Below, one piece after another: positions 22,319 through 57,091 of a stretch of 64,000 nt of DNA. Within the stretch, counting starts at the first letter, position 1, and each line of letters opens with the position of its first letter. The DNA is taken from NCBI GenBank assembly GCA_029262055.1, contig JAJDAD010000035.1, positions 1 to 64,000 of the forward strand, in the 5' to 3' direction. Position numbers and translations under genes: made by a program. Origin of the DNA: Candidatus Zhuqueibacterota bacterium (GTDB taxonomy: Bacteria > Zhuqueibacterota > Zhuqueibacteria > Oceanimicrobiales > Oceanimicrobiaceae). The notes under the pieces were generated by a model, which saw nothing but the letters and a program-made list of their open reading frames with translations, was not told where the DNA came from and ran no database searches.

Positions 22319-23215
22319 ATGTTAGCCAAAATCACGTGCAAGAGCGGAATGCTGGCAAAGACGGAGTTTCTCGTTCGCGGCTCTCTTACCATTGGTGCAG
22401 CCGCCAGAAATGATGTGATCATAAAAAAGAAAACCGTGTCGAACAGGCATGCCCGCATATTCTATGACAAAACTGAGAAGCGCTACTTTCTGGAAGATCT
22501 GCAGAGCCACAACGGCACCCAGTTGGATGGTGTGCCGATCAAAGCACCACAGCGGCTCGGAGTCGTGCACGTCCTGACCATTGCTGACAAGTTCGATTTT
22601 ATCTTCCAGCCGGTTCTTGCGGACGGGCCCTCGGTCGCGCCGGCGCCGGCAAAAACTCCTGTGCCTGTTACACCTGCGACCGCCAGTCCGGTCACTATCA
22701 TCGAGCACCTGCCATTCGACTCCAACGAGAGCCACACACGCCAGAGGCTCACTGCGCCTGCAACCATTATGGAAGAAGTCCGCCAGACCGGAGGAGGAAA
22801 CGAACGTTACTTATCTGCCGAAAATCTGCACGGAGACGGCCAACTATGCCAGACAGAGAATGAGTACACTGCCTCGCAAGAATATGCCGTACCGGAACCC
22901 ACCTGGCCGCAACCTGCTGAACAGCAGGCGCTGTCATTACTCATCCCGGCGATGCAGGAAAAATTTGTCCTTGGTCCCGGCGAGCACCTGATCGGGCGAG
23001 CCGTGGCCTGCGCGATTACGATCAATCACCACAGCGTATCGCGCCAGCATGCCCTGATTCGTGTCAGGGAGCACTCGATGGTAATCGAAGATCTGGGCAG
23101 TAAGAATCACACGCTGCTGGCAGACCGCCGCTTGCAGGGACAAACCGAAATCGGCGCCGGCCACGCGCTGAAATTCGGCCAGGTCGAAGCAATTGTAACG
23201 CAGGAAGATGCGTGA
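22319..23215 (+). CDS. Protein with two FHA domains
   Basis: 298 cytoplasmic residues: FHA domain 1 (about 10-85), a 100-residue Pro/Thr/Glu-rich linker with possible phosphorylation sites, and FHA domain 2 (about 205-298). Domain 2 has the full phosphothreonine-binding set: LIGRA, SRQHA and an Asn in DLGSKNHT. Domain 1 keeps SNRHA and SHNGTQL but has IGAA where the binding Arg is expected, so it may bind weakly or serve as a dimer interface. The next gene, 34 bases on, also carries two FHA domains, and a Ser/Thr kinase follows. Start ATG 22319 is preceded by GAGAGTGAG. Confidence 0.93.
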   Translation: MLAKITCKSGMLAKTEFLVRGSLTIGAAARNDVIIKKKTVSNRHARIFYDKTEKRYFLEDLQSHNGTQLDGVPIKAPQRLGVVHVLTIADKFDFIFQPVLADGPSVAPAPAKTPVPVTPATASPVTIIEHLPFDSNESHTRQRLTAPATIMEEVRQTGGGNERYLSAENLHGDGQLCQTENEYTASQEYAVPEPTWPQPAEQQALSLLIPAMQEKFVLGPGEHLIGRAVACAITINHHSVSRQHALIRVREHSMVIEDLGSKNHTLLADRRLQGQTEIGAGHALKFGQVEAIVTQEDA

Positions 23216-23249
23216 CCGGTGGCTTTGTTAGTACCAGGGAAGAGTAGTC

Positions 23250-25559
23250 ATGCTTGAATTACAATATAGCCAGGATGGTTTTTTGCAGCTTTCAGACCCG
23301 GTCGACTTGCCCGAGCTGCTCGATATCCTGATTGTGGGTGGCGGGCCCGGCGGAACTGCCGCTGCGTTCCGTGCCAAAGAGTTGGGTCTGGCCGCTCTGG
23401 TCATCGACTTTGACGATTTGATGAAGCGCATCCGGGACTACGCCAAGGATAAACTGATCATCCCCGCGTTCGGCGGAGGCGATCATCTGGAATTTCCGGA
23501 GGGCGGCAAGCTCATCGCCCGACTGTCCTTTACTGACATCGACAAAGACGATATGTGTGCGCAGTGGAAGCAGCTTTATTATGAATTTTCGGTCCCGGCT
23601 CAAATCGGCGCAGAGCTCACCGGCCTCGAACCGGGGCCCGGGCAAGTGTGGCAAGTCACGATCTGGAACCATAACCTGAGTCAGGAGCAGACCCACCTGG
23701 CGCGGCACGTCATTCTGGCGGTCGGCAAGGGCGTGCCGCGCAGGTTCGACATTCCGGGTAACAGCGACGGAATTGTCTACCGCCTCAGCGAGCCTGACCA
23801 CTATCTCGGCGCCCCGGCCTGTGTTGTCGGTGGTGGCACTTCCGCAGCCGAAGCGGTGATCGCGATCTCCAACGCCAAGGCTGCCTCAGAAGACTCGACA
23901 CCTGTGTTCTGGTCCTATCGTGGACATAGGATGCCACGCGTGTCCAAGGCACTCGCGGACGATTTTTTCGGAGCCTACCTGGGCAATGGCAATGTTAGAT
24001 ACTTTCCAAAAAGCGAGCCAGTGGCCATTGTCACCAGTGCGGCAGGCAGCGAATATCTGGCCATTCGCACCGAATCGGATCCGGAGCAGACGGCGCGCAC
24101 GGAATGTCGCTATCTCGAATTTCCCAAAAAGCGCTGCGTCGCTTGCATCGGCGAAGATATGCCGGAAAAATTCCTGGCATCCATGGCGATTCATCTGCGC
24201 AACGGCGGAACGTCCAGAAAGAAACGCATGACGGTCAATGCCCACCTGGAAACGCAACAACCGGGCGTTTTCGTAATCGGCGATCTGCTCAGTCCCTCCT
24301 ATCTCGAAATAGCGGACTGGGCTCCGGAAAACGCACCGGCCCAGGAGGTAAAACACCGGGGCAACATAAAAGCCGCCCTGTGCGATGGTGTGGCTGTTGT
24401 TGAGCACATCCATCGCAAGCAATCTACCGGCTCTATGTCTGTGCCCACTGTTTCAGCCTCCACAAAAGCAAAGCATGACCAGCCTGTCCCGCCGGAACCA
24501 AAGCCGGAGACACACCCAACGACACCGGCTGGCGAAGCGCTAACCCAGGCCTGTATCAAACGCCTGCTACCCGGGGAGGTCGAGGAAGCAGAATACCCGA
24601 TCAAACCAAATGGCATCACCACCATCGGGCGCGTGGATTGTGATATCTGCCTGCCCGGGGACACCACGCTTTCAGATTTTCATGCGTCGCTGGCCAGTAA
24701 CAGCCAGGGATTTTTTCTGCGCGACGAAGGCAGCAAAACCGGCATCTTCATTAAATCCGCCGCAGGAGTTGCGCGGGAATTGCCACCGGATACAACGATT
24801 AAGGCCGGCGCACAATTCCTCACATTCGTCCTGGTCAACGGTAGCGGTTTTTTGCAGCAGGGTCAAACCGGCAGCCGGCATAGCCTGTCGGACAGATTTA
24901 CCGTATTCGGCCGGGAAGCGGAAGTCGTACTCGACGTCTCCGACCTGTCGCTCTCACGCCGGCACTTCGCGGCAGCAGAGCGAGACGGCTTCCTGGTGCT
25001 AAAAGATCTGGGTAGCGCTAATGGTATTTTCATTAAGATTCGGGATTCCCTGGCAATTGCAGCAGGCGACCGTTTCAGGATTGGCCAGCAACTGTTCTAC
25101 TTGTCACATCCCGGTTACGGAACGCCGGCAGGCGTCGGCACAATGCTGCCACCCGACGACCATCAAAACGGCGAAGCAGGCACGGTCTCACCAACAGTCG
25201 AGCCAGATGCCCTGCTGAACGGCCCGGGCGACCAGCTCCCGGAATCGACGGCACAGACAAGCGCTACGCAAGTCAACGTGTATGTCGAAAATCTGGGCAA
25301 AACCGTAGAAGTCCCGCCCGGCGCAACGCTCTGCCAGGTCGCGGAAAAGTGCGGCTACAAGGTAAAGGTCGAATGTGGCATCGGCGTCTGCGGCAGCGAT
25401 CCGGTTAAAGTGCTGGCGGGCAGCGAGAACCTCAGTTCTCCGAGTGATGAGGAACTGGAAACACTCCCGGATATTTGTGATCTCGAACCCGGGCCATACC
25501 GCCTGGCCTGCAAGGCTGAAGTAACCGGAGATGTCAGAATTGAATTTATGGCAGACTAA
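23250..25559 (+). CDS. Thioredoxin-reductase-like flavoprotein fused to two FHA domains and a ferredoxin domain
   Basis: 769 residues in four modules. Residues about 1-390: two-dinucleotide-binding flavoprotein with ILIVGGGPGGTAAAF (FAD), CVVGGGTSAAEAVIAI (NAD(P)H) and GVFVIGDLLSP (FAD). The redox CxxC of true thioredoxin reductases is not at its usual place. After a Pro/Thr linker come FHA 1 (about 445-520; GRVDCD, SDFHA, but Thr replaces the conserved Asn) and FHA 2 (about 535-620; FGREAE, SRRHF, SANGIF: complete). Residues about 690-769: [2Fe-2S] ferredoxin domain with Cys709, Cys714, Asp717 in place of the third Cys, and Cys754. The likely electron path is NAD(P)H to FAD to iron-sulfur, possibly gated by phosphothreonine binding. 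The overall build is unlike any standard enzyme I know. Confidence 0.9.
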   Translation: MLELQYSQDGFLQLSDPVDLPELLDILIVGGGPGGTAAAFRAKELGLAALVIDFDDLMKRIRDYAKDKLIIPAFGGGDHLEFPEGGKLIARLSFTDIDKDDMCAQWKQLYYEFSVPAQIGAELTGLEPGPGQVWQVTIWNHNLSQEQTHLARHVILAVGKGVPRRFDIPGNSDGIVYRLSEPDHYLGAPACVVGGGTSAAEAVIAISNAKAASEDSTPVFWSYRGHRMPRVSKALADDFFGAYLGNGNVRYFPKSEPVAIVTSAAGSEYLAIRTESDPEQTARTECRYLEFPKKRCVACIGEDMPEKFLASMAIHLRNGGTSRKKRMTVNAHLETQQPGVFVIGDLLSPSYLEIADWAPENAPAQEVKHRGNIKAALCDGVAVVEHIHRKQSTGSMSVPTVSASTKAKHDQPVPPEPKPETHPTTPAGEALTQACIKRLLPGEVEEAEYPIKPNGITTIGRVDCDICLPGDTTLSDFHASLASNSQGFFLRDEGSKTGIFIKSAAGVARELPPDTTIKAGAQFLTFVLVNGSGFLQQGQTGSRHSLSDRFTVFGREAEVVLDVSDLSLSRRHFAAAERDGFLVLKDLGSANGIFIKIRDSLAIAAGDRFRIGQQLFYLSHPGYGTPAGVGTMLPPDDHQNGEAGTVSPTVEPDALLNGPGDQLPESTAQTSATQVNVYVENLGKTVEVPPGATLCQVAEKCGYKVKVECGIGVCGSDPVKVLAGSENLSSPSDEELETLPDICDLEPGPYRLACKAEVTGDVRIEFMAD

Positions 25560-25596
25560 GTCCTCCGCCGACACTGCAGGGGTCAAAACAATATCC

Positions 25597-27003
25597 ATGC
25601 TTGCCACCCCCCTATTGCATGAAATATCTGACAGTAGCGATGCACAGCTCATGAAAATTTCGCGATACAATATCGTCCGTGAACTAGGTGAGGGTGGCAT
25701 GGGCAAGGTCTACCTTGCCGAAGACACCCAACTGAATCGCAAGATTGTCCTGAAAGTGCTGCCACGCTCGGTCGCGGTCCGCAAGACCATCATGGAGCGC
25801 TTCCAACGCGAGGCACGGGCGGCAGCAGCTTTGAAGCATCCCAACATCGTGACTGTCTACGACTTCAATCAATACACCGATGGCCACTACATCGCCATGG
25901 AATATATCGACGGCGTATCTCTGCAGGATCTCCTGGACAAAAAGAAGGTCTTGTCACAGACCAAGGTACTCGACATCGTTCTTCAAGCCGGGCGCGGACT
26001 ACGCAGCGCGCACCAGGCAGGCATCGTTCACCGGGATATTAAACCGGGCAACATTATGATCGATCGCGAGGGCTGGGTCAAAGTGCTCGATTTCGGGCTG
26101 GCAAAGCTGACCGACTTTCAAAGACTCACCAAATACGGCACGCGGATGGGCACCATCCCTTACATGTCTCCGGAACAGGTACGCGGGGAGGAAGTCGACG
26201 AACGCAGCGATATTTTTTCCATGGGAGTCGTCCTGTATCAGCTCCTGACGCAGCGCCTGCCGTTTAACGGTGAAACCGAGGCCGCCCTCATGTACGCCAT
26301 CGCACATAACAGCCCGGAACCCATCGACCGCCAGAAAAGCGGCATCAATGCGGACCTGCAGAGAGTTGTGGGGAAAGCCCTGTACAAGAATCCCGAGCGT
26401 CGCTACCAACACCTCGACCGCTTCTTATCCGACTTAAAGCAGGAAAGAAAACGGGGGCGGCCGCCAAAGACCACAAGCAGCAAGACCCGGTCCCTCAGTC
26501 CATCCGATACCATCCGCATCAGGGCGTTTGACACGGAAACTGCGCGCCCGCGCCTGAGACTGATCGCCAAGGCGGCAACAGCGTTCCTGCTCATCTTCTT
26601 CGCGTGGCTCTCTTTGGCGGACAGCGGACAATTGGCCTGGACGCGGGTATCTTCCGCGGTCGTGACATTTGTCTCGACAAAAATATCGAAAAGCGCCGGA
26701 CAACCAACCTCGGAGCACCTCAGGCAACTGATGCAGATCACCGACACGGAGCTGCTGCTGCGCACGCTCGAACTCTACGAAGAGAAAGCCCTGATTGCGG
26801 TCGACAGAGCAAAAATGAATGCTGAAAAACTGAACGCCAGCTATGTCTTTATCACCAGCTCCGAATCGGTGATAGACGTCTTCCGTGTAAAGAACCGGCA
26901 GTTCCACTCGCTGCGATCGGACATGGCCGTCTCGACCCTGTCAGGAAAATTTCCGGGCAAAGAGATGATCTGGGTGCAGGATTTGGCTGTGGCAGGCAAG
27001 TAA
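25597..27003 (+). CDS. Transmembrane Ser/Thr protein kinase (Hanks type)
   Basis: PknB-like kinase. The catalytic domain begins YNIVRELGEGGMGKVYLAED (P-loop), has the VAIK-equivalent Lys in IVLKVLP, catalytic loop HRDIKPGNIM, Mg motif DFGLAK, activation segment MGTIPYMSPEQVRGEEVDERSDIFSMG. After a basic Ser/Thr juxtamembrane stretch comes one membrane helix (AATAFLLIFFAWLSL) and an exported domain of about 120 residues with no family I recognise. Start is uncertain: ATGs at 25531, 25597 and 25651 are in frame. I list 25597, with a weak AGGGG upstream; 25531 would overlap the previous gene. It probably phosphorylates Thr residues read by the four FHA domains encoded just upstream. Confidence 0.93.
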   Translation: MLATPLLHEISDSSDAQLMKISRYNIVRELGEGGMGKVYLAEDTQLNRKIVLKVLPRSVAVRKTIMERFQREARAAAALKHPNIVTVYDFNQYTDGHYIAMEYIDGVSLQDLLDKKKVLSQTKVLDIVLQAGRGLRSAHQAGIVHRDIKPGNIMIDREGWVKVLDFGLAKLTDFQRLTKYGTRMGTIPYMSPEQVRGEEVDERSDIFSMGVVLYQLLTQRLPFNGETEAALMYAIAHNSPEPIDRQKSGINADLQRVVGKALYKNPERRYQHLDRFLSDLKQERKRGRPPKTTSSKTRSLSPSDTIRIRAFDTETARPRLRLIAKAATAFLLIFFAWLSLADSGQLAWTRVSSAVVTFVSTKISKSAGQPTSEHLRQLMQITDTELLLRTLELYEEKALIAVDRAKMNAEKLNASYVFITSSESVIDVFRVKNRQFHSLRSDMAVSTLSGKFPGKEMIWVQDLAVAGK

Positions 27004-27084
27004 CCGCCGGACCACGGACAAGGTGACTGCCCATGCCGTGTTACTTTTTCTCCGGACTGAGTCCGTGAAAACGCAGGCCCGCTC

Positions 27085-27891
27085 CTAGCGCGCGAGTGAA
27101 ACGGAGAAGCCGCCAGCCGCGATGATGTTCTCCAGCGAGCCGTGATATAATCTGTCCTGGAAATCCTCAGATTCCACCAGATGTTGCGTGATTTCCTGAC
27201 TGTCGCGTGCGATCAGGTGCTTCAATTCCGCCAGGTTCGTCGACCAGCAGAATCCATTGAAAAACTGAAACCCGGCAAACTGCGTCTTGTACAGAGCATT
27301 CGTGGAGTAGCAAGTGCCCAGGTAGAGGTGTTCATGCTTCTCAGCGGCAAACCTATCCACACACGAAGTCATCATGAACATGCCCAGGTTGCGATTGTAG
27401 TAGCCGAGATCATAAAAGGCATAATAGTAGTAGACCAGAACACTGCCTTCAATAAAGAGCGTAGCCAGCCCAACCTCTTGCCCGGTTTCAGTATCCTCGA
27501 AGACCAGGACGTGTGAGATTAGCTGCGAGTTCATAAGCCCGTCGAGACGCGCGTAGGTCATGACGTCTTTGCCGAACTTGATGTCTGCGTAAGTCTTGCA
27601 GAAATCGCGGCGCCGCGGGCTGAAGTCGAATTCATCGCGCGGGACCAAACGATGCCTGATCCCTTTGCATTTGCGTAAAATCCGGCGGTTCTCCGAAGAC
27701 CGGGTGAAAGCCGAAAGCTGGACGCGGATCTGGCGGCACATGTAGTATCTGTCCAGCTCACGGGAAGCGGGCAGAAACCCCTGCGCGAAGATCTGGGACG
27801 GTCTCTCCCCCGCTTCCGGGATGGCCCAGATGGCGTAGGGAAAAATATAGTGCCCGTAGTCAGAGCGGGCTTCGGAGAATAGCACCTTCAT
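27085..27891 (-). CDS. Arginyl/leucyl-tRNA--protein transferase-like (ATE/GNAT fold) protein
   Basis: 268 residues. The second half resembles the ATE C-terminal GNAT domain: LATLFIEGSVLVYYYYAFYDLGYYNRNLGMFMM and HLYLGTCYSTNALYKTQFAGFQFFNG. The N-terminal half has RYYMCRQIRVQLSAFTRSSENRRIL, matching the PVRV-F-SxSQRR region of ATE/Bpt enzymes. The Cys pairs that bind metal in ATE1 are missing. True ATE or Bpt enzymes attach Arg or Leu from charged tRNA to protein N-termini; this divergent relative could use aminoacyl-tRNA for another acceptor. It follows the ATP-grasp gene by 111 bases on the same strand. Confidence 0.7.
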   Translation of the reverse strand: MKVLFSEARSDYGHYIFPYAIWAIPEAGERPSQIFAQGFLPASRELDRYYMCRQIRVQLSAFTRSSENRRILRKCKGIRHRLVPRDEFDFSPRRRDFCKTYADIKFGKDVMTYARLDGLMNSQLISHVLVFEDTETGQEVGLATLFIEGSVLVYYYYAFYDLGYYNRNLGMFMMTSCVDRFAAEKHEHLYLGTCYSTNALYKTQFAGFQFFNGFCWSTNLAELKHLIARDSQEITQHLVESEDFQDRLYHGSLENIIAAGGFSVSLAR

Positions 27892-28002
27892 GAAATATTT
27901 CCTCGTTTGCAGGTTCTCGCGGCCTGATGCCTACGCCGGCACCTGTCACCGGGCCGGTTTGCGTTGCTGCGGAGTGGAGGCGAAGCGGGCATTGACCGCG
28001 GT

Positions 28003-29250
28003 TCACTCCGATCCTGGCGGCCACAGGCTCTTGCCGATGTCGGTTCGGTAGTAGCTGCTCAGGCACCTGATTTTGGCAATGTTATCGTACGCGTTCTCAA
28101 TAGCCTCTTCCAGAGTCGGCTGAATGGACACCACGTCTGCAATTCTGTGACCGTCGAGCGCAAGCGTGCCTGCTGGCGTTTCTGCCACCTGGTTCCACCA
28201 CACGTAGCAATCAAACTCGCCGAGAGCCTCAACGGGGAATTTCGGAGCGGCTATCTGAGTGAAAGGATAGCCATACCCGGCCAGGGTAAGCGAACAAGCA
28301 TACCTGACGTCGTCATTGAACCTGGGCTCGATGGCGCGATTGGTACTCACATCAGCCAGCACCTCCAGCGGATTCTTCAGCATTTTCCAGATGACCGGGC
28401 CGCACGTGACCCCGATACGCACGTTGTATTCCAGTACGTGCCAGCGGTCACGATGACGCATGGCCGTCACTTGCACGGGTCCGTGAAAATTGACTTCGCG
28501 AAACCACGGTAGCAGCGGGTGGAGCAGCTCCCTGGCCAGGCCATACTTGTCGTCATTATCCATTTCCACGATGCCTCCGAGTGGAACACCTGCGAGCACT
28601 CCCATGTTGCCGTCGAAGGCACGTTTGTATTCCAGGTTAGAAACCATCGAGTAGATTTCACCGCCGCTGACAAAAGCGATATGCCCGGCTTCATAACTGT
28701 CGAGATATTCCTGCAAAAAAACTCCTTCGGCATAATCGACTTGCCGCAACCAACTTCGGGTATCCTCCATGGATTCGCACAGGATCGTGTGCACGGGGCT
28801 GGTGGGCGAACACAGCGTGTTCTTAATGACGAACGGCATCGGGTTTTCATCCAGGATCTTCTCGGCTTCCAGGCGATTTTTCGCGACAAAGGCCTTCGGA
28901 TAGGGGATACTGTAGCGAGCACACAAGTCCTTGCCGAAGTGACGGTCGCGCTCCAGCCGTATGCCTTCTTCCGCCGGTGATATAATTGGGATGCCGAGTT
29001 CAAGGAATTCTTCCACCCAATCCGCACGGTTCCAATCGATGGACATGGGGATGACACAGTCGATGGCCAGCTCCCGCAGCAGTTTGCATAGATTAGGGTG
29101 TGCGTCGCTAGCGTACGTCGGGCCGACAATTCCAGGGCCATACCGCCCGCCGTCTCTCGTAAAATAGGTGTGGACTTCTGCGCCTTGCTCGGTCAGAACT
29201 TCCCCAACGCCATGAGCAAACGAACCGACTCCCAAGATCATGATTCGCAA
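28003..29250 (-). CDS. PurD-like ATP-grasp ligase
   Basis: 415 residues with the architecture of phosphoribosylamine-glycine ligase: an N-terminal Rossmann-like domain (RIMILGVGSFAHGVGEVLTEQ), an ATP-grasp core (PFVIKNTLC; GVFLQEYLDSYEAGHIAFVSGGE; WHVLEYNVRIGVTCGP with the metal-binding Glu/Asn) and a C-terminal barrel. It departs from PurD at the phosphate and glycine-binding loops: the GxGGREHA start is absent and NPRxGDPE reads NVRIGVTCG. I therefore think it joins a carboxylate to an amine on another substrate. It sits in tandem with the ATE-like gene, which suggests a two-enzyme amide-forming pathway. Confidence 0.78.
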   Translation of the reverse strand: MRIMILGVGSFAHGVGEVLTEQGAEVHTYFTRDGGRYGPGIVGPTYASDAHPNLCKLLRELAIDCVIPMSIDWNRADWVEEFLELGIPIISPAEEGIRLERDRHFGKDLCARYSIPYPKAFVAKNRLEAEKILDENPMPFVIKNTLCSPTSPVHTILCESMEDTRSWLRQVDYAEGVFLQEYLDSYEAGHIAFVSGGEIYSMVSNLEYKRAFDGNMGVLAGVPLGGIVEMDNDDKYGLARELLHPLLPWFREVNFHGPVQVTAMRHRDRWHVLEYNVRIGVTCGPVIWKMLKNPLEVLADVSTNRAIEPRFNDDVRYACSLTLAGYGYPFTQIAAPKFPVEALGEFDCYVWWNQVAETPAGTLALDGHRIADVVSIQPTLEEAIENAYDNIAKIRCLSSYYRTDIGKSLWPPGSE

Positions 29251-53885: not shown

Positions 53886-55226
53886 ATGGATAGCAAGAAG
53901 TCAAAAACAGACATGGACCGGCGGACTTTTTTGCGCACCAGCGCGGTGGCCGGAGCCGGAATGTTCGTTGCGCCAGCGGTGCTGGGGCAGCAACGCAGCA
54001 GCTCCAATGATTTGAACATCGGGATGATCGGCGTTGGGGCGCAGGGACAGGTCCTGTTGAATGCCGGATTGAAGATCCCTAACATCCGCTTTAAGGCAGT
54101 GTGCGATATTTGGCAGGAGTATAATCTCAAGCGCGCCACCGGCTTGCTCGGGAAATATGGCCACGCACCCACCGCCTACCAGGATTATGCGGAAATGCTG
54201 ACCACTGAAAAAGATCTCGATGGCGTTATCATTGCCACGCCGGATTTCTGGCATGCGCAGCAGACAGTCGCTTGCCTGCGCGCCGGTTTGCATGTTTACT
54301 GTGAGAAGGAGATGTCCAACACCCTGCAGGGAGCGCAAAGAATGGTGCGCGCCGCCAGACAGACGGGCAAGCTCCTGCAAATCGGCCATCAGCGCCGCAG
54401 CAATCCGCGTTACCTGCACTGCTACCACAAGCTTCTGCGCGAAGCGAACATTCTTGGCCGAATCACCACCATCAACGGCCAGTGGAATCGTGCGGTGCAA
54501 CCCGACCTGGGCTGGCCCAAGAAATACGCAATCGCCCCGGCGACCCTGCGAAAATATGGCTTTGACTCCATGCATCAATATCGCAACTGGCGCTGGTACC
54601 GCGACCTTGGCGGCGGCCCGATTGTCGACCTGGGATCACATCAGATTGACATCTTCAATTGGTTCCTCGACGCGCAGCCGAAATCCGTTATGGCCAGCGG
54701 CGGGACCGATTACTACGACAAGAAAACACACGAATGGTATGACACCGTTCTCGCGGTCTACGAATATGAAACCGAAGCCGGCAAAGTGCGCGCTTTTTAT
54801 CAAACCATCACCACCAACAGCAGCGAAGGGTATTATGAGAACTTTCTCGGAGATCAGGCTACGCTGCACATCTCCGAATCTGCCAGTAGAGGCGGGATCT
54901 ACCGCGAGCCCTCCGCACCGCAATGGCACAAGTGGGTCGAGATGGGATACCTGAAGGCTCCCAAAGAAGACAAACCCACCGAAACCGCCGCCGTCCTGGA
55001 CGTCCGCGAGACCGTGGCGCCGCCACAACACCGGTTGCCGGTTGAGTTCAACGACCCCTACCACAAACCGCACCTGGAGAATTTCTTCAATGCGATTCGT
55101 GGCCGGGAAGAGCTCAACTGCCCGGAAGACATTGGCTATGAAACGGCCGTCACCGTTCTGAAAGTAAACGAGGCGGTGCGGGCTGACAGAAAGCTATCCT
55201 TCAAACCTGGGGAATTCACAGTTTGA
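53886..55226 (+). CDS. Tat-exported Gfo/Idh/MocA oxidoreductase 2
   Basis: 446 residues. Twin-arginine signal DRRTFLRTSAVAGAGMFVAP; Rossmann fold LNIGMIGVGAQGQVLLNAGLK; catalytic motif CEKEMSNTLQGAQRM, with Glu in place of the Pro of EKP; substrate domain with RNWRWYRDLGGGPIVDLGSHQIDIFNW. It follows the first exported paralogue by 35 bases but is only distantly similar, so the two probably act on different positions or substrates. The stop TGA overlaps the ATG of the cytochrome gene, tying oxidoreductase and multiheme cytochrome together. Confidence 0.93.
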   Translation: MDSKKSKTDMDRRTFLRTSAVAGAGMFVAPAVLGQQRSSSNDLNIGMIGVGAQGQVLLNAGLKIPNIRFKAVCDIWQEYNLKRATGLLGKYGHAPTAYQDYAEMLTTEKDLDGVIIATPDFWHAQQTVACLRAGLHVYCEKEMSNTLQGAQRMVRAARQTGKLLQIGHQRRSNPRYLHCYHKLLREANILGRITTINGQWNRAVQPDLGWPKKYAIAPATLRKYGFDSMHQYRNWRWYRDLGGGPIVDLGSHQIDIFNWFLDAQPKSVMASGGTDYYDKKTHEWYDTVLAVYEYETEAGKVRAFYQTITTNSSEGYYENFLGDQATLHISESASRGGIYREPSAPQWHKWVEMGYLKAPKEDKPTETAAVLDVRETVAPPQHRLPVEFNDPYHKPHLENFFNAIRGREELNCPEDIGYETAVTVLKVNEAVRADRKLSFKPGEFTV

Positions 55227-57091
55227 TGAGCCCATCCAAACAGGCTTTGTTGCTGGCGCTGGCAGTGGTCATTTGTACGGCGCAGAGTTTTTCCCAGGAT
55301 GCGAAGATCGGCGATGTCAGCGACGGCAATCGCTCCAGCCCGGTTCACCTCCTCAATCTGTACGACGAAGAGGGTTCTATTATCACTCCCCAGATTGAAC
55401 CCATGCTACCCTTTTCACCAAAACAGACTTGCAGCCCGTGTCACGATTACACAAGAATCAGCGACGGCTGGCATTTCAATGCGGCAACCGGCGTCCTTGC
55501 GGGTCGGCGCGGACAGCCCTGGATCTTTGTGGACCGGACCACGGCCACCCAAGTGCCTTTGTCCTATCGCGCCTGGTACGGCACCTACCGACCTGAGGAG
55601 TTGGGCATCACACCGATGCGCTTTGTACAACTGTTCGGCCGGCACATGCCCGGCGGCGGGGTCGGCGACAACGAACAAATGCAGACTCCGGAAAACGTCA
55701 TGCGCTGGTGGGTTTCGGGCAAACTTGAAGTCAACTGTCTGAGCTGCCACGATGCCGAACCGGGTCACGATCAAGCCGAGTTTGACACTCAAACCAGAAA
55801 AGGAAACTTCCGCTGGGCTGCCGGCGCAACCAGCGGGTTTGCTGCGGTTCAAGGTTCGGCGCGGGACATGCCGGACAACTTCAGCATCTACGGGTCCCTG
55901 CTGGATGACGGCAAGAAGATCCCACCGGCCATCAGATATGACCGGAATCGATTCGATTCGCACGCAAAAGTCCTGTTCAACCTCGAACGGCAAGTGGCCA
56001 ATGACCGCTGTTACTTTTGCCACTCGACCAAAGTCATCGGCGCGCAGTCCAAACGATGGCAGTCTGATGAAGATATTCACATCAGCGCCGGTATGCAGTG
56101 CGTGGATTGCCACCGCAACGGCCTCGACCACCGGATGGTGCGCGGCTACGAAGGCGAAGCACAGGAATATGACAACCCGGGTGCAGCAACCTTGACCTGC
56201 AAAGGGTGTCATTTGGGGGAAGACTCCGAAGAGGGTGTCCGTGCCGCCGGTCGCCTGGGCGCCCCGGTTCCGGACCATGTCGGCATTCCGCCGGTTCATT
56301 TTCAAAAACTGACCTGCACGACTTGCCATTCCGGTCCCTGGCCTGCAGAAAGGGCCTACCCGGTCAAAACTTCGAGAGCGCATGCGCTCGGCACTCACCG
56401 CGTAAACCGGGGCGATGCCGCATTGCCGCACATCGTGGCCCCGGTATTTGTCGAACAGGGCGACGGTGTAATCGCACCGCACAAGATGTTCTGGCCTTCT
56501 TTTTGGGCAAAAATCGAACGGGGCCAGGTCAAGCCCATTGACCCATTGCTGGTGCAGCCGCTGGCTGCTGAGCTGGTGCCGGCTGACACCCTCGGTACCG
56601 GCGACTGGCCCGGCTTGACGCAAGGACAGATCGCAACTATCCTGCAAGGCCTGGTGCAAGGCGATTCTACTTTGACAGCGGCGTATGTCGGCGGCGGCAA
56701 CTTATATCGCCTGTCGGCCACGGGCCGCATGATCGCGGAGGAACACGCGGCTGCTACCCCCTACTCCTGGGCCTTCGCGCACGACGTCCGCCCGACTGCA
56801 CAATCGCTCGGTGTGCGCGGTTGCGACGATTGCCATGCCGGCGATTCGCCCTTTTATTTTGCACAAATTCCAGTCGACACTCCGGTTGCCGCCGAAAGTG
56901 GTGCCGTGCGCAGAATGGTTGACTTTCAGGACATTAGCTCATTCTATGCGCGCCTTTTCGGCTGGTCGTTCATGTTGCGCCCACTGCTGAAGATCATTAT
57001 TCTGGCTGCGGGCGGCGTGCTCGCGCTGATCTTTGTTTCCTATTTGTTCAATGCTTTTTCCGCATTTATTCGCGGGGCGGACGGCTCTTAA
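55226..57091 (+). CDS. Seven-heme cytochrome c with C-terminal membrane anchor
   Basis: 621 residues from ATG 55226 (a TTG one codon earlier is also in frame). Signal peptide (ALLLALAVVICTAQSFSQ), then seven CxxCH motifs: CSPCH (about 69), CLSCH (171), CYFCH (262), CVDCH (291), CKGCH (325), CTTCH (364), CDDCH (533). Numerous other His residues could serve as distal ligands. One membrane helix lies near the C-terminus (LLKIIILAAGGVLALIFVSYLF). It is a periplasmic electron-transfer protein of a multiheme family I cannot name exactly. The one-base overlap with the exported oxidoreductase and the b-type partner downstream suggest a route for sugar-derived electrons into the quinone pool, or the reverse. 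Confidence 0.92.
   Translation: MSPSKQALLLALAVVICTAQSFSQDAKIGDVSDGNRSSPVHLLNLYDEEGSIITPQIEPMLPFSPKQTCSPCHDYTRISDGWHFNAATGVLAGRRGQPWIFVDRTTATQVPLSYRAWYGTYRPEELGITPMRFVQLFGRHMPGGGVGDNEQMQTPENVMRWWVSGKLEVNCLSCHDAEPGHDQAEFDTQTRKGNFRWAAGATSGFAAVQGSARDMPDNFSIYGSLLDDGKKIPPAIRYDRNRFDSHAKVLFNLERQVANDRCYFCHSTKVIGAQSKRWQSDEDIHISAGMQCVDCHRNGLDHRMVRGYEGEAQEYDNPGAATLTCKGCHLGEDSEEGVRAAGRLGAPVPDHVGIPPVHFQKLTCTTCHSGPWPAERAYPVKTSRAHALGTHRVNRGDAALPHIVAPVFVEQGDGVIAPHKMFWPSFWAKIERGQVKPIDPLLVQPLAAELVPADTLGTGDWPGLTQGQIATILQGLVQGDSTLTAAYVGGGNLYRLSATGRMIAEEHAAATPYSWAFAHDVRPTAQSLGVRGCDDCHAGDSPFYFAQIPVDTPVAAESGAVRRMVDFQDISSFYARLFGWSFMLRPLLKIIILAAGGVLALIFVSYLFNAFSAFIRGADGS

Follow-up and report, generated by a model that had tools for sequence, protein, structure and literature searches.

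An FHA-bearing flavoprotein-ferredoxin fusion displaced from a conserved multihaem electron-transfer operon

Results

Five genes in two convergent modules

The window, which is the whole 64,000-nucleotide stretch of DNA analysed here, comes from an uncultured genome (G000) and carries five adjacent genes. Open reading frames were obtained by simple calling, and all five ORFs of the original prediction were confirmed at their positions and strands:

22319-23215, + strand: double-FHA protein, 298 aa, module A (PF00498 twice)
23250-25559, + strand: FUS, the FHA/flavoprotein/2Fe-2S fusion, 769 aa, module A (Pfam and NCBIfam)
25531-27003, + strand: Hanks-type Ser/Thr kinase with one predicted transmembrane helix, 490 aa, module A (start overlaps the end of FUS)
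27085-27891, - strand: ATE-like (arginyltransferase-related) protein, 268 aa, module B (weak NCBIfam resemblance)
28003-29250, - strand: PurD-like ATP-grasp ligase, 415 aa, module B (below the PurD cut-off)

Module A spans 22319-27003 on the + strand and module B 27085-29250 on the - strand. The two modules are convergent, and module B is therefore not co-transcribed with module A. Promoter and terminator scans gave hits at chance level only. The five genes had been read as one candidate undescribed system; they instead make up two modules. For comparison we used 60 related genomes (the window's genome and 59 relatives) and a set of 82 genomes of the phylum, the comparison genomes being uncultured.

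Domains and motifs of module A

Pfam confirmed the four FHA domains predicted earlier, two in the double-FHA protein and two in FUS. On FUS it further matched Pyr_redox_2/3 (E = 7e-16 / 4e-15) and Fer2 (E = 3e-6), in agreement with the predicted NAD(P)H flavoprotein-ferredoxin fusion. A YpdA/thioredoxin-reductase-like FAD/NAD(P) domain occupies residues ~20-390, the two FHA domains ~430-620, and a plant-type ferredoxin domain the C-terminus; the AF2 model of FUS (pLDDT 43) was too poor for fold reading. FUS shares the FAD/NAD(P) two-domain fold with YpdA (bacillithiol disulphide reductase) and thioredoxin reductases (TIGR04018, E = 9e-14). However, it scores 51 bits against the curated YpdA equivalog cut-off of 340, and, unlike either enzyme, it carries a ferredoxin domain and two FHA domains in the same chain.

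The ferredoxin ligands of FUS are C709, C714, D717 and C754, a C-C-D-C set instead of four cysteines, and they are invariant in all full-length relatives. This set is one of the two plant-type 2Fe-2S ligand patterns (CCCC or CCDC), and a cluster is predicted. An Asp at the third ligand position is known for some succinate dehydrogenases. FUS thus resembles SdhB/FrdB-type and plant-type [2Fe-2S] domains in its Fer2 fold and third-ligand Asp, but differs from them in that the domain is fused to a flavoprotein with FHA domains.

FHA domains bind phosphothreonine made by Hanks kinases. Motif inspection found the canonical Arg, Ser and Asn of the binding face complete in two of the four domains, namely the second domain of the FHA protein (GR..SRQH..SKNH) and the second domain of FUS (GR..SRRH..SANG). 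The first domain of the FHA protein reads GA where GR is expected, and in the first domain of FUS a T replaces the N. The kinase (Pkinase, E = 9e-56) has intact GEGGMG (53), HRDIKPGN (167; HRDxKxxN) and DFG (187) motifs, as in Hanks Ser/Thr kinases, and one predicted transmembrane helix at 344-362, so that the transmembrane Ser/Thr kinase of the original prediction stands.

FUS lies in a multihaem cytochrome operon in relatives

Full-length FUS architecture was found in 12 of the 82 genomes of the phylum and in two other phyla; a broad genome scan with a single FUS sequence as query returned two loci. Around FUS in these relatives we labelled recurrent genes as follows: c9, a protein with two cNMP-binding domains and 4Fe-4S domains (including PF13247); c7, a dihaem-b-like membrane protein; c5, a decahaem cytochrome; c33, c11 and c14, multihaem cytochromes; and c22 and c38, outer-membrane barrel candidates. 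The gene order is largely constant: c22 or c38, then c33/c11/c14, c9, c7, c5, FHA and FUS, followed by a PP2C phosphatase gene (six loci) and sometimes a kinase gene. The order multihaem cytochrome, c9, c7, c5, FHA, FUS is kept in two classes of the window's phylum (L061 and L158) and in MAGs of Gemmatimonadota (L025) and Acidobacteriota (L026); the last three share the identical order c22-c11-c9-c7-c5-FHA-FUS, L158 belonging to a class other than the window's. In one genus (g15), FUS lies away from the cytochrome genes. The FUS membership of a multihaem cytochrome operon was missed by the earlier reading.

Among the 59 relatives, FUS occurs in 10. All 10 carry c9, versus 4 of the 49 without FUS (p = 1.6e-8, indicative only, as are all co-occurrence p-values here, because the comparison genomes are related to each other). 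Three of these four relatives with c9 and without FUS have c5 and a kinase in view. That c9 occurs without FUS indicates that FUS is not essential to the conduit.

The double-FHA protein of the window is 30-46% identical to the FHA gene product of this redox operon, including those of L025 and L026, and its homologs in relatives lie downstream of c5 and upstream of FUS. Of 16 loci, 12 have an FHA gene upstream of FUS (one of them with an extra ORF between the two), and 6, from three families, have a PP2C gene directly after FUS.

Every copy of c5 has 10 CxxCH motifs, and both copies tested have one N-terminal transmembrane helix. The haem count is 3 or 7-8 for c11, 10 in the longer copies of c14, and at least 3 for c33 (partial). 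Both WX3HX13H motifs of c7 were present in 15 of 16 copies, L025 lacking the first Trp; the [SG]GxxG motif reads SGxxG in most copies and GGxxG in two, and is absent from L026. The c9 protein matches PF13247, and its gene either precedes c7 or is fused to it, the fused copy scoring just below the Pfam cut-off. The c22 and c38 products have no Pfam match, no haem motifs and mostly aromatic C-terminal residues; by these features and their length they are candidates for outer-membrane barrels. The AF2 model of c22 (pLDDT 28) was unusable.

The rest of the operon lies on another contig of the same genome

On contig C106 of the window's genome (L114) we found the order c37-c38-c14-c11-c9/c7 fusion-c5-DUF5777 barrel, the last gene encoding a DUF5777 membrane beta-barrel domain. 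This half of the operon lacks exactly FHA, FUS and the kinase, and no kinase gene stands before its barrel gene. The FHA, FUS and kinase genes of the window are a displaced part of the conserved multihaem electron-transfer operon. The protein at 12849-14129 of L114 and its homologs in L115, L118 and L119 have a CX4CH haem-like motif ahead of the DUF5777 beta-barrel domain and may be cytochrome-porin fusions that recall Cyc2.

The window kinase points to the same operon. Out of 271 kinase matches in 12 genomes, the best three are the kinases directly behind c5 in the redox operon of three genomes from three other genera (G002, G004 and G005), and among the matches listed only these align beyond the kinase domain to the C-terminal end. 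These genomes have no FUS, and their full-length orthologs of the window kinase lie between c5 and the DUF5777 barrel gene. Thus the window kinase is the kinase of the redox operon, here joined with FHA and FUS. We regard this orthology as the strongest evidence for the predicted functional link of kinase, FHA protein and reductase. The earlier proposal that the kinase signals to the reductase gains from the operon a functional link, carried by the FHA gene upstream of FUS, the PP2C gene after it and the kinase orthologs behind c5; signalling by FHA docking is still what we infer. Kinase identity varies from locus to locus, many FUS loci have no adjacent kinase, and the genomes hold 13-58 kinase matches each. 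In genus g15 and in G054 (L116 4765-7263, L117, L121 and L122), a single gene separates c9 from a different kinase gene downstream; the L116 kinase is fused to a sulfatase-modifying-factor (FGE) domain.

A second operon of the window's genome (L123, C45:28000-39154) encodes a 4Fe-4S/Pyr_redox flavoprotein without FHA domains, a membrane protein that resembles c7 and has WX3HX13H twice, and a 20-haem cytochrome. This FHA-free counterpart suggests that flavoprotein, dihaem protein and multihaem cytochrome form a recurring unit to which FHA control was added. A further multihaem protein in L123 is cut by the contig end. Elsewhere in the window, a seven-haem Cytochrome_C7 protein (55223-57091) lies beside three GFO/IDH/MocA oxidoreductase genes and a 3-keto-disaccharide hydrolase gene, possibly a sugar-oxidation cluster with its own cytochrome.

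Module B is a separate, widespread gene pair

The likeness of the fourth protein to arginyltransferases proved weak but real: NCBIfam arginyltransferase models matched at E = 1.6e-7 and ~31 bits, against cut-offs of 170-358, and Pfam gave no match. It has no CxxC and one invariant Cys (C194), and so lacks the cysteine-rich N-terminal motif of ATE/Bpt proteins. The PurD likeness of the ligase is clear, yet its score of 107-109 bits lies below the TIGR00877 equivalog cut-off of 288, and the canonical PurD of the genome lies elsewhere (G000:C61:853-2112, 534 bits). Module B therefore resembles ATE/Bpt aminoacyl-tRNA-protein transferases weakly and PurD ligases moderately, but differs from both in its sub-cut-off scores and in consisting of separate, paired genes, often accompanied by a second alanine racemase.

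The ATE-like gene occurs in 41 of the 82 genomes of the phylum. Both genes are found together in 28 of the 59 relatives, most of them without FUS (p = 1.4e-9 for the pair, indicative), and in about 20 genomes they share a contig, mostly as neighbours. Co-occurrence with FUS was not significant for the ATE-like gene (p = 0.16), and p was 0.012 for the PurD-like gene, both values again indicative. In every other genome having both, FUS and the pair lie on different contigs; they are adjacent only in the window. The idea that the pair serves the redox module is thus not borne out. Among the relatives surveyed, the pair neighbours FUS in no other genome. Module B is a separate, widespread pair and an unrelated neighbour of module A.

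In several families an alanine racemase gene lies between or beside the pair, and in most of these cases the genome encodes a further alanine racemase at another place; the window's genome has a second one at C25:50850. The trio of PurD-like ligase, alanine racemase and ATE-like transferase is conserved across the class (L075, L077, L085, L086, L095 and L101), with an Rce1-like protease gene upstream in family f7. The trio looks like an undescribed amino-acid conjugation pathway. As a lead only, the probable activity of module B is to attach an amino acid, perhaps D-alanine, to some acceptor.

Comparison with porin-cytochrome complexes

The main text of He et al. 2017 (PMC5566968) describes the putative porin-cytochrome complexes PCC3 and PCC4, whose inner-membrane protein carries two WX3HX13H motifs and SGxxG. 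In PCC4 subgroup II a PF13247 Fe-S gene lies just upstream of the membrane-protein gene, and PCC4 has three periplasmic multihaem cytochromes with 4, 5 and 10 haems. The operon described here is alike in that c7 carries both WX3HX13H motifs and SGxxG, the PF13247 protein c9 is encoded upstream of c7, and c9 and c7 are fused in the window's family, such a fusion being annotated in one PCC4 genome. It also has a 10-haem periplasmic cytochrome, multihaem cytochromes, a porin candidate and extra redox genes. In contrast to PCC4, the cytochromes here have 3, 7-8 or 10 haems, so that only the 10-haem one fits and the 4- and 5-haem ones are unmatched, and c9 bears two cNMP-binding domains. The FHA protein, the FHA-containing reductase, PP2C and the kinase are absent from the main-text description of PMC5566968; that text mentions 'other redox-active proteins', with domains shown in its supplement, and FUS-like proteins may be among them. 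We class the operon as PCC4-like and not as a member, since the other haem counts differ and the porin is only a candidate.

In a literature search, no paper was found that connects FHA domains to multihaem conduits. Table 1 of PMC10734462 lists, unexplained there, a 'forkhead-associated protein' cluster (cluster 403) with 10 haem motifs in 27 genomes of iron-oxidising Gallionellaceae, which may be related to the c5/FHA pairing.

Discussion

Having observed the domains, gene order, co-occurrence and motifs, we infer the chemistry, electron path, direction and regulation. Module A probably forms the NAD(P)H-side end, in the cytoplasm and under phosphothreonine control, of an electron conduit that crosses the envelope and resembles PCC4. 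Electrons would pass between NAD(P)H, the FAD of FUS and its [2Fe-2S] domain, then the 4Fe-4S domains of c9 and the dihaem b membrane protein c7, and on to the membrane-anchored periplasmic decahaem c5, further multihaem cytochromes, the outer-membrane barrels and an outside acceptor or donor, with flow in either direction. NAD(P)H, FAD, 2Fe-2S, 4Fe-4S, two b haems and ten c haems would then make an unbroken carrier set from cytoplasm to periplasm. The kinase, together with PP2C in relatives, would decide which Thr residues carry phosphate, binding of the FHA protein and FUS to these through their FHA domains would switch or recruit the reductase, and cyclic nucleotide binding by c9 could be a second control. 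More tentatively, a possibly extracellular conduit could be gated at its NAD(P)H entry by two signals, phosphothreonine from its own kinase and phosphatase and a cyclic nucleotide acting through the Fe-S relay. OdhI and GarA, through which Hanks kinases control a metabolic enzyme by FHA binding, are alike in combining FHA, a redox-metabolism enzyme and a kinase; module A differs in having FHA domains inside the enzyme itself, and this enzyme is part of a cytochrome operon.

Two observations count against phosphothreonine control, namely the two FHA domains that each depart from one canonical residue and the many FUS loci without an adjacent kinase or phosphatase. They favour a reading in which FUS works with the conduit while its FHA domains are assembly scaffolds for partners that are unphosphorylated or constitutively phosphorylated; kinase and PP2C adjacency would then be incidental, with no switchable phospho-control, and with so many kinase matches per genome some chance adjacency is expected. 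We consider this rather unlikely, given that the window kinase is orthologous to the c5-operon kinase of three other genera, an independent arrangement, and that PP2C follows FUS in several loci of three families. An alternative that we hold to be improbable takes FUS for a cytoplasmic thiol-disulphide or ferredoxin-type reductase of the general redox pool, with an operon position that reflects co-regulation only. YpdA is indeed its closest curated reductase family, a thioredoxin-reductase-type enzyme is the closest solved structure to its N-terminal part, and most copies have a CxxC (C296/C299). However, this motif is not strictly conserved (L069 reads CIVLIG), the fused ferredoxin domain fits one-electron transfer, the position beside Fe-S, dihaem b and decahaem genes is kept over three phyla, and the C45 operon likewise pairs a Pyr_redox flavoprotein with a c7-like protein and a multihaem cytochrome. 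As for a single five-gene system, in which the ATE/ATP-grasp pair would make or modify a substrate or effector of the FHA/reductase part, its one point of support is adjacency in one genome. It is rejected because of the genomes and contigs on which FUS and the pair occur; non-significant FUS/ATE co-occurrence, separate contigs and convergent modules leave it unsupported, and we regard it as highly improbable.

Most work on porin-cytochrome conduits treats them as fixed wires, and the control of electron flow through them is poorly known. With module A as the regulated NAD(P)H-side end, a conserved operon that has phosphothreonine readers inside its reductase, with a cNMP-binding Fe-S protein and a kinase or phosphatase beside it, would be a concrete example of electron export or uptake gated by signals in phyla known from uncultured genomes, namely Gemmatimonadota, Acidobacteriota and the phylum of the window.
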